DNA of 64,000 nt, from assembly GCA_011503125.2 (NCBI GenBank), contig WWBZ02000001.1:62001-126000 (forward strand), given 5' to 3'. The translations under genes were made by a program, and so were the position numbers. Source of the DNA: Botryosphaeria dothidea (taxonomy: Eukaryota; Ascomycota; Dothideomycetes; Botryosphaeriales; Botryosphaeriaceae). This document shows, one piece after another, positions 16,659 through 32,146 of the stretch. Every line of letters begins with the position of its first letter. Position 1 is the first letter of the stretch. The notes under the pieces were generated by a model. That model searched no databases, was not told the DNA's origin, and worked only from the letters and a program-made list of their open reading frames with translations.

Positions 16659-18091
16659 ATGGCTTCTTCGCCAAACACCCCACCTGCCGATCAACCCACA
16701 GATCTCGAGGCCTGGCGGTTAATCGACACCGGTGCTCCTTGCGAGTGGGCAAAAGACTATCGGCCTGGTGATTTTCACCCAGTCAACCTTGGGACCAGTT
16801 TTCCGATGGCAGGTATAAGGTCATTTGCAAACTGGGAGATGGTTCATACTCCACCGTGTGGCTGTCCGTCGATTTACGGTGAGTCCTATAAGTTTTCACT
16901 CTTTCATTCTTTTTTCATGGTTTGTTCAATTAGATTCCAACGAAAACCTTCATTGCAGCACGCCACGGTATGTGGCTCTCAAGATCATGGTCGCGGAAGC
17001 ATCAACTACGGACATGGAGCTTTCCATTCTCAACCATCTCGCACAGCTGGCCCCGGAAGACACAAATTCTGAGCATGTGACTACATCGTTAGATACCTTG
17101 AGGTATGATGGACCCAATGGAACACACCGGTGCCTTGTATTTGAGCTCATGGGTCCGACCGCGGCATCGCTGGTCGAAGAACTGCCAGAGAACAAACCTA
17201 AGAAATTCGGAAAACCACAGAGATATCCATACTGGATTGCCAAGAGAGTCTTGCATCATACACTGCGAGGACTTGCCTTCCTGCACCAGAATGGCGTGGT
17301 GCACGGCGACGTGCAGCCTGGCAATCTACTCTTCGCAATCGACGACATCCGCGCCACGAGTGAGGCAGAACTGAAGCAAGATCAGACCAGTACAGCAGTA
17401 CCTGTGGAGTGCGTGGATTGTAAGGACGATAGATGGGCGCCAAAACAACTCTACCTCAAACAGTCTCTCCACCAACGCGTGCGATTGGGCTCCGATCTTT
17501 GTGTTAAGCTGTCGGACCTCGGAACAGGTAGGCTCTTCAGAAAGCAAAGGAATAGAGTGCGCTAACTGTTCGCATTAAGCTTTCTGGGCAACTAGCCCGC
17601 CAAGCAACACCCTCACGCCTCTGGAGCTGCGCGCTCCAGAGCTGATACTCCACAAACCCTTCGGCACTGGCATTGACATATGGAGCTTCGGGTGTCTTAT
17701 CTTCGAGGTCTTGACTGGCAAGCAGCTCTTCGCAGTGATGATGTTGGGACACGAGCAGGAGGAACAGGACGAGGCCGACAACGACCATCTGATCCAGATC
17801 AACGAGATCATTGGGCCACTGCCGCAGGCAATCATGGATGCCTGGCCGCGCGCTCCTAAATGGTACGGCCCAGAAAGCCAGCGCTTGCAGCCATACACCA
17901 ATCTCGATGGTGGGGGCGAGCCTTACAAATTCGAGTCGCTTGACGTTTTGTTCACGCAACAGAAGCCGCCAGAAATCAACGACGAAGAGTCCAGAACTGT
18001 GTGTAAGCTCATGCAGCATATTTTTCAATATGATCCAACCCAGCTATCGTCAGCGGTGGAGATACTTAAACACCCTTGGTTCTTGGAATAG
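16659..18091 (+). CDS. SRPK-like serine/threonine protein kinase, one frameshift
   Basis: A kinase of the fungal SRPK family, whose best-known members phosphorylate SR-type splicing proteins. Start ATG is 16659. Introns are 16879-16958 and 17528-17579, both GT-AG. The Gly-rich loop reads KLGDGSYSTVWL, the ATP lysine is in VALKIM, the catalytic loop reads HGDVQPGN (Gln where most kinases have Lys, as often in this fungal group), and the metal loop reads SDLGTG. Then come APELIL and IDIWSFGCLIFEVLTG. Near 16791-16793 the frame needs one extra base in a GGG run to join the N-terminus (DYRPGDFHPVNLG) to the Gly loop, so this is either a homopolymer error or a recent break. About 430 residues if continuous. 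Confidence 0.85.
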
Positions 18092-18174: not shown

Positions 18175-18489
18175 CTAATCCTTCTTCCGTCCATAGTCCC
18201 AATCAACATTAGCCTCTGTTTCATCGACGCTTCTCTTTCCATAGTCCCAGTCGACATTGGCATCTGTATGGGCGGCCTCATCACTCCTCTTTCCGTAGTC
18301 CCAATCAACGTCAGCCTCTGTCTCGCCGGCTTCAACGCTTCTCTTTCCATAGTCCCAGTCGAGCTCGGCATCAGACGTTGTGGATTCCGTAGAGGGGGCC
18401 TCCACAGCGCTGGGGTTTGCGATGGGATTGGCAATGGCTCTCGTGGCGAGGAGGCCCAGAAGGGCGCTAAGAGTGATAGAGGCCTTCAT
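18175..18489 (-). CDS. Secreted Kex2-processed repeat precursor with four DWDYG units
   Basis: A 104-residue single-exon protein. Residues 1-20 form a signal peptide (hydrophobic SALLGLLATRAIA). Four repeats follow, each with an acidic spacer (such as SVEAGETEA) and a core of LDWDYG or VDWDYG. Three cores are followed by KR, the Kex2 site, and the last by RKKD. The coding repeat has a period of about 54 bp and varies at the DNA level. This layout is known from fungal KEP proteins, which include the precursors of ustiloxin- and asperipin-type cyclic peptides and of alpha-factor-like pheromones. The product would be short WDYG-containing peptides exported through the Golgi. No DUF3328 (UstYa) oxidase or peptidase gene is visible nearby, so modification is unproven. 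It is transcribed convergently with the kinase. Confidence 0.85.
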   Translation of the reverse strand: MKASITLSALLGLLATRAIANPIANPSAVEAPSTESTTSDAELDWDYGKRSVEAGETEADVDWDYGKRSDEAAHTDANVDWDYGKRSVDETEANVDWDYGRKKD

Positions 18490-19680
18490 CTTAGTGACAG
18501 AAAGCTGGACGGTTCTACGTTAGCATCGCTTTGCCGTATCGAAACACCCAGATTAAGACACTTACGACGTTTGAAAGAGATTGCAGATGCAGAAGATGCT
18601 GTGTTTGGTGTACTAAAGAAATGGGATGTGCAGCACCATGGTATTTATGCGTTAGGAGGGGCTCAGCACCATGAGTTCCCAGCTCCGTGCACAACGGCGC
18701 TTTTTCCCGTTTGCACACGGTCAGGATTGAGAAGCTGACGATGACATGCGCAGTCTAGATCTTTCAACTGCTGGAGTAATGGCCGGACCTCGCTCCGTCG
18801 AGCCGAATGTAGTGGCAAAGCCGCGGTAAGCGATAGATTGTTGTGGGGCAACCTCGCATGGTGTGATTCAAAATAGCCTGGATGCTGACATCCGGATTTG
18901 AGACAGGATTTCGCCATGCTCACATCACTAGAATAGGCAAGTCAAGGATCAATTTTAGCGCCACCAACACCAATGTCATCTATCTTCTCCGTCGGAGAAT
19001 TCCATAACATTGCAGCCACCATGCGCCTATGACCAGGGACTTTGTCAGCTGGAGGACATTACGCGTACCGGACCGACTTCGAGCCTAAGTTCGATTACTG
19101 TGGGACAGGAATTAGCGACTACTACGGCTGTAGACACAGCTACAATCTCGAGTACTGTTGTATAGCTAAACTGGTCAAGTAGAGAAAAGGCGGCAACGTC
19201 TTAATACGAAGCGCGATAGAGTAGCGAGTAGAAGCACGCCATCAAGCAGTGGGCGTAAGGCGGACGCTGCGGTCATATTCTCGGGCGTGGTCGAGATGTA
19301 GGCCGGGCATACCTTCACTTTATGACTTGTCCGTTGAAAAATTGCCCTATTCTAATTATCTGCAACCCCGAGCATGTTTGTGGAAAGCGGCAGGATTGAT
19401 CCATGTGGCTGCGCAGGGGGGAGTATGCTACCACGCGGATATGTCGTTAAAGTTTCCATGGCGTTCCATGATTCTTGTTCGGGTGGCATATAAAATGCAG
19501 TGGGGTAGAGATGTTGGCTTATGCTTAAGCAAACCAATGGGAGGACGGACAAAGTATCTTATGACGGTTTGTGTGGGGAATAAGTTCAGATTACTAAGGG
19601 TGGACTCAGGCATATATCTTGGCACATATACGACTTATGTTGCAAGCGCTACGATGACAATGGCCCTATCCAGAAGCAGA
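18490..19680. other. Intergenic, upstream of the repeat precursor
   Basis: Nothing recognisable as a gene. The first several hundred bases are the 5' region of the minus-strand precursor. Beyond about 19000 the sequence grades into retroelement debris. Confidence 0.4.

Positions 19681-28086: not shown

Positions 28087-32146
<4,060 letters not shown>

Follow-up and report, generated by a model that had tools for sequence, protein, structure and literature searches.

A small gene of Botryosphaeria dothidea is predicted to encode a secreted Kex2-processed repeat protein (KEP), from which four small acidic linear peptides ending in DWDYG would be released for extracellular signalling or effector use; we give this reading a probability of about 0.58. 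Confidence is high that the precursor is a KEP, and moderate that its product is linear. The class is a known one, and the new part is that one tetrapeptide, WDYG, is reused on different types of precursor.

The WDYG precursor gene

The window, which is the whole 64,000-nucleotide stretch of DNA that was analysed, contained the following features in and around the WDYG gene.

18175..18489, minus strand: WDYG precursor open reading frame, 104 aa, with ATG at 18489 and stop at 18177-18175
18430..18489, minus strand: predicted signal peptide, aa 1-20 (cut between AIA and NP), from hydropathy and the (-3,-1) pattern
18340..18360, minus strand: copy 1, DWDYG then KR
18286..18306, minus strand: copy 2, DWDYG then KR
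18232..18252, minus strand: copy 3, DWDYG then KR
18181..18204, minus strand: copy 4, DWDYG then RKK, followed by D and the stop
18505..18565, minus strand: predicted 5'UTR intron, 61 bases (GTAAGT ... GCTAAC ... CAG)
18642..18649, minus strand: TATA-like CATAAATA, upstream of the WDYG gene
16819..18091, plus strand: protein-kinase gene, convergent neighbour, frames of two exons (PF00069 in 16819-17562 and 17579-18088)

The first-pass annotation had located the open reading frame exactly but left its strand unstated, and translation (104 aa and a stop) placed it on the minus strand. On the contig the gene lies at 80,178-80,489, with the nearer contig end 80 kb away. The predicted 5'UTR intron ends 15 bases ahead of the ATG, and because a consensus intron is found at this place the open reading frame is likely a real gene. 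The same intron pattern had 5 matches across the entire window on both strands. The stop of the protein-kinase gene is 83 bases from that of the WDYG gene, and this neighbour is not part of the WDYG system. Also in the window were a beta-galactosidase (GH2) gene (28090-31718, minus) and two frames for sugar transporters, one at 35.3 kb and one at 48.0 kb.

The predicted protein begins with MK. A hydrophobic stretch follows, whose best 9 residues average 2.38 in hydropathy, and hydropathy and pattern predict a cleavage-type site after residue 20. The four DWDYG cores begin at aa 44, 62, 80, and 96 (spacing 18, 18, and 16). The earlier annotation had also counted four cores, three of them with KR behind, and the translation agreed, with RKKD after the fourth. 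Once basic residues are removed, the predicted fragments are one of approximately 28 aa, measured from the predicted signal-peptide cut, followed by SVEAGETEADVDWDYG, SDEAAHTDANVDWDYG, and SVDETEANVDWDYG. Each has 5 or 6 D+E and no K or R, in line with the acidic spacers described at first pass, and the inner units are 14-16 aa long. KEPs are recognized by having three or more similar units with KR, RR, or KK between them, and this precursor has four, with three KR sites and a terminal RKK. A further rule is that the repeated motif makes up at least 15% of the protein (PMC6339444, methods); the smallest unit, 14 aa taken four times in 104 aa, amounts to approximately 54%. The precursor was modelled as unfolded, with no secondary structure and a mean pLDDT of 57.

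A repetitive secreted layout of this sort would also fit a surface or wall repeat protein that is kept uncut, or a source of fibril-forming peptides like those of Rep1, which are Kex2-processed and surface-active according to PMC4617103. However, the inner WDYG units are short and strongly acidic, not 34-55 aa and amphipathic as in Rep1, and the open reading frame encodes no Cys and no N-glycosylation sequon, which argues against a protein of either sort. We consider an origin of this kind highly improbable. Adipokinetic hormone (PF06377) was also tried and rejected: the summed score was 27.3 bits against a cut-off of 22.9, but no single stretch passed E 1. A PF06377 label on the WDYG protein, which would come from summed repeats only, is a likely source of misannotation.

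The repeat structure was then compared with chance. A scan for KEP-like open reading frames, defined by a four-residue word common to at least three fragments between dibasic sites, found a single example in the window, scoring 4 at best, versus none in 40 Markov-resampled windows (best score 2). In sums over the 6 copy pairs, which are not independent of one another, the DWDYG codons of the four copies had 7 synonymous and no nonsynonymous differences, while nine spacer codons of the same copies had 9 synonymous and 34 nonsynonymous differences.

The WDYG gene is single copy in the 51.7-Mb genome. All three matches to WDYG plus KR-type codons were within this gene, and the reversed pattern, used as a control in the same genome, had one match. 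DNA coding for [D/E]WDYG had 20 matches, 16 of which were outside the WDYG gene in frames with a single WDYG. No homologue of the precursor was found in the genome; besides itself, there was one match, twice, at E 2.03. Two pairs of matches had identical translated context (C2:783212 with C24:12125, and C36:3732951 with C78:2847276), which suggests that the assembly contains duplicated stretches or that some of its contigs are redundant.

The WDYG core in other fungi

Three protein searches, with 8, 43, and 19 proteins, gave 49 relatives (P0003-P0051). Scoring in the 43-protein search was limited to the 7,996 candidates that had the most words in common with the query, and its 43 proteins include 18 without WDYG. 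The small number of relatives counts against the preferred reading. With the window's own protein counted, WDYG was present in 32 of 50 proteins, in 125 copies, and absent from 18. The KEP layout proposed at first pass was therefore borne out by the same repeated core on proteins of other fungi, and WDYG repeats near KR, which the first-pass annotation had suggested looking for there, were found.

Eleven precursors had no KP4-fold domain, namely the window's and those of ten relatives. The named relatives in this group came from Truncatella, Seiridium, and Pestalotiopsis (Sordariomycetes, Sporocadaceae) and from Didymella and Kalmusia (Dothideomycetes), and the others were P0003 (57% identical), P0006, and P0047-P0049. 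These relatives consist mostly of the array, except for C-terminal tails in P0006 and P0048. Across the eleven precursors, the eight residues ahead of the core had a mean identity of 13% in 793 between-protein unit pairs; by this measure the spacers are near random between proteins. Since W[DN]YG served to find these 42 units, a constant core among them follows from the method itself. Departures from the core were SDYG in a fragment of P0050 and WNYG, once, in P0007. P0006 is a WDYG KEP of hybrid layout, with EAQA and KREAEA dipeptides and a CaaX-like C-terminal GGGCSVM. P0051, from Kalmusia, carries a second repeated core, VDATYT, then SINW or ANNW before KK or RK, three times, in addition to two WDYG units.

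A dibasic pair was found at most 12 residues downstream in 118 of the 125 WDYG copies, directly after the Gly in 50, and not within 20 residues in 5, although the Colletotrichum rows among these copies are near-duplicates. Between WDYG and the nearest dibasic pair downstream lay 0 to 15 residues, so that WDYG is not a fixed Kex2 subsite, a point against the pro-region reading given below. The Didymella-type relatives have STEDKR or a comparable sequence after WDYG, not a Kex2-type site directly. Mature ends are not constant either, since the predicted fragments in relatives such as P0007 and P0050 would run beyond WDYG. The variable ends and the 5 copies with no nearby dibasic pair count against the preferred KEP reading.

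Among the repeat units of 3,398 KEP types and singletons (PMC7329392), chance alone would give approximately 0.06 WDYG sites, a rough figure that uses assumed residue frequencies and an assumed 13 positions per unit. Because so few are expected, the recurrence of WDYG across fungi points to either descent or selection, and a common ancestry of the arrays is no more than possible. The strings WDY, DYG, and YGK are absent from the main text of PMC6339444 and PMC7329392, whose supplements or logos may list the family unnamed. The first-pass annotation had not recognized the core, and in the titles and opening abstract lines of 40 of the 44 papers containing the string WDYG there was likewise no fungal KEP.

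In 19 named Colletotrichum proteins, the WDYG core was found in 1 to 8 copies ahead of a domain with the KP4-killer-toxin fold, and in 17 of these 19 the usual signal and pro-region precede the array. The domain after the array belongs to the KP4-like fold in these relatives, with the fold modelled for one of them (P0022). Another 17 named Colletotrichum relatives are without a WDYG array and have KR at the corresponding place.

Conservation of the core could instead mean a pro-region or processing role. WDYG would then be a discarded element serving folding, transport, or protease presentation, as in Kex2-processed effectors with pro-domains. The 19 Colletotrichum proteins fit this idea in that the array stands directly before a full-length KP4-fold-type domain, and pro-domains of Kex2-processed effectors are reported in PMC8528282 to be necessary for folding. 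On the other hand, the window's protein has no predicted fold for a pro-region to serve, the ten relatives without the domain are largely array, and the 17 Colletotrichum relatives without the array manage without WDYG. A discarded pro-region element is thus an unlikely explanation.

Proposed processing and nature of the product

Under the preferred KEP reading, the WDYG precursor would enter the secretory pathway by its predicted signal peptide. In the Golgi, Kex2 would cut after the three KR sites and the terminal RKK, Kex1 would trim the basic residues off the fragments, and four acidic peptides, each with a DWDYG end, would be released to the medium. There the linear peptides may act as signals or effectors, with WDYG as the part recognized by the target, which may be a receptor of the fungus itself, a host, or a competing microbe. 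The proprotein-convertase P domain (PF01483) was found once in the genome (C12:2802831-2803091, E 9.6e-30). The open frame around it is 886 aa long, and the gene that bears the domain is, to judge from this domain, the probable Kex2. By description, though not by sequence, the precursor may be likened to Laccaria MiSSP8, which is said to be a linear KEP effector. According to PMC7329392, an effector role has been verified for linear KEP peptides of other fungi. Against the preferred reading, six KEP knockouts in Coprinopsis are described as having no apparent phenotype (PMC9769878). An outward-acting role of the WDYG peptides, as effectors or in competition, is slightly favoured because the core recurs in the pro-region of KP4-fold proteins in Colletotrichum.

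The alpha-type mating pheromone of B. dothidea would be made by the same secretory and Kex2 logic. A STE2 receptor gene is in the genome (C47:1866202-1867091, L046), and no standard alpha-pheromone core was found in it by three patterns, which omit some known alpha pheromones; one of the patterns had two matches, both in frames broken by stops. Among the relatives, P0006 has the EAQA and KREAEA dipeptides that such a precursor could carry. Known ascomycete alpha-pheromone core motifs are WC..GQ.C(W) and PYGxPxG, and by its residues WDYG does not belong to the standard alpha pheromones. DWDYG is also unlike the pheromone motifs given in PMC6339444, PYG[L/M]P[I/V]G included. The Ste13 dipeptides (XA or XP) are absent after KR in the window's gene, which has SV, SD, and SV instead. 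Furthermore, KEP type G-2, where pheromone is the annotation of 121 out of 138, has Colletotrichum, a carrier of WDYG arrays, as one of its listed genera (PMC7329392, Table 2). Both the core and the lack of Ste13 dipeptides make a mating-pheromone role unlikely, and identity with the alpha-type precursor of this species very unlikely.

The first-pass annotation had also raised a dikaritin-type RiPP. By analogy with ustiloxin, the C-terminal WDYG would be cyclised between Trp and Tyr, here by UstYa oxidases from another locus. The general layout of the precursor matches that of ustiloxin-type precursors (PMC7329392), and the genome gave 18 matches to UstYa exons, 17 of them above the family cut-off, which indicates that such oxidases exist elsewhere. 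Six of these matches lie within approximately 5 kb (C47:3861518-3866581), and this group may be a RiPP cluster with no link to the WDYG gene. DUF3328 genes average 3.09 genes from the KEP gene (PMC7329392), but the sole UstYa match on the WDYG contig was at 4,406,705, 4.3 Mb off, although weak or short exons could escape the search. This agrees with the first-pass observation of no DUF3328 oxidase nearby; the genome search placed no UstYa/DUF3328 gene within about 15 genes, the range taken for a dikaritin. In 30 of the window's 99 stop-to-stop open reading frames of at least 130 aa, Pfam identified no UstYa or tyrosinase, and one oxidase, a P450 at 38.3 kb.

The dikaritin reading is weakened by the distant UstYa gene and by the several relatives that do not end at WDYG, and we consider it improbable. 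The linear or signalling product, which the first-pass annotation offered as its alternative, fits better. Since WDYG is followed by STEDKR in the Didymella-type relatives, neither cyclisation nor amidation at a C-terminal Gly would be general. The PAM profiles PF01082 and PF03712 had no match in the genome, and the control genomes gave none either, so that amidation is still conceivable.

Meaning and relation to known systems

KEP peptides are numerous and their functions largely unknown (PMC9769878), and most KEP types are confined to a single genus (PMC7329392). The WDYG core turns up again in other fungi, where the precursors are of different build, and the WDYG proteins may therefore form a family of fungal peptides, messengers or effectors, that is new to the literature. 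It is conceivable, though we put this forward tentatively and as rather less than an even prospect, that WDYG is a portable secreted tetrapeptide ligand, unchanged across the Sordariomycetes and Dothideomycetes, carried on at least three precursor types and directed at one shared extracellular receptor or target. If so, the three types would be peptide-only arrays, arrays in the pro-region of KP4-fold proteins, and an array on a protein whose end resembles a CaaX box, and the Colletotrichum KP4-fold precursor would yield both peptides and a protein effector. The presence of WDYG in the pro-region of a killer-toxin-fold protein suggests that effector pro-domains assumed to be discarded may be peptide messages. 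Because it is shared by two classes of ascomycetes amid changing surroundings, the tetrapeptide offers a handle on a receptor or host target, and it is open to immediate synthesis and testing.

Several known systems resemble the WDYG proteins in part. Ustiloxin- and phomopsin-type precursors likewise have a tetrapeptide core with Tyr, and the ustiloxin cores YAIG and YVIG end in Gly as WDYG does (PMC7329392). In contrast to them, the WDYG gene has no nearby UstYa, its core is another, and several relatives continue past WDYG. The Trichoderma h-type pheromone precursor HPP1 (PMC3068285) is a hybrid like P0006, in that both combine Kex2-type units with a CaaX-like end (CSVM in P0006). However, HPP1 repeats the (LI)GC(TS)VM motif itself (PMC3068285), and the window's gene is without a CaaX-like end. 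The KP4-fold effector Zt-KP4 (PDB 8acx) has its counterpart domain in the Colletotrichum relatives only, and this domain is absent from the window's gene. Ustilago Hum3, as described in PMC4617103, has Kex2-separated repeats before a folded domain, as do the Colletotrichum WDYG proteins, but its repeats are amphipathic and 31-36 aa long and its folded domain is a hydrophobin (PMC4617103). With the KEPs described in PMC6339444 and PMC7329392, the window's gene shares a predicted signal-type N-terminus, at least three near-identical units split by KR, RR, or KK, and a single small precursor predicted to be secreted.
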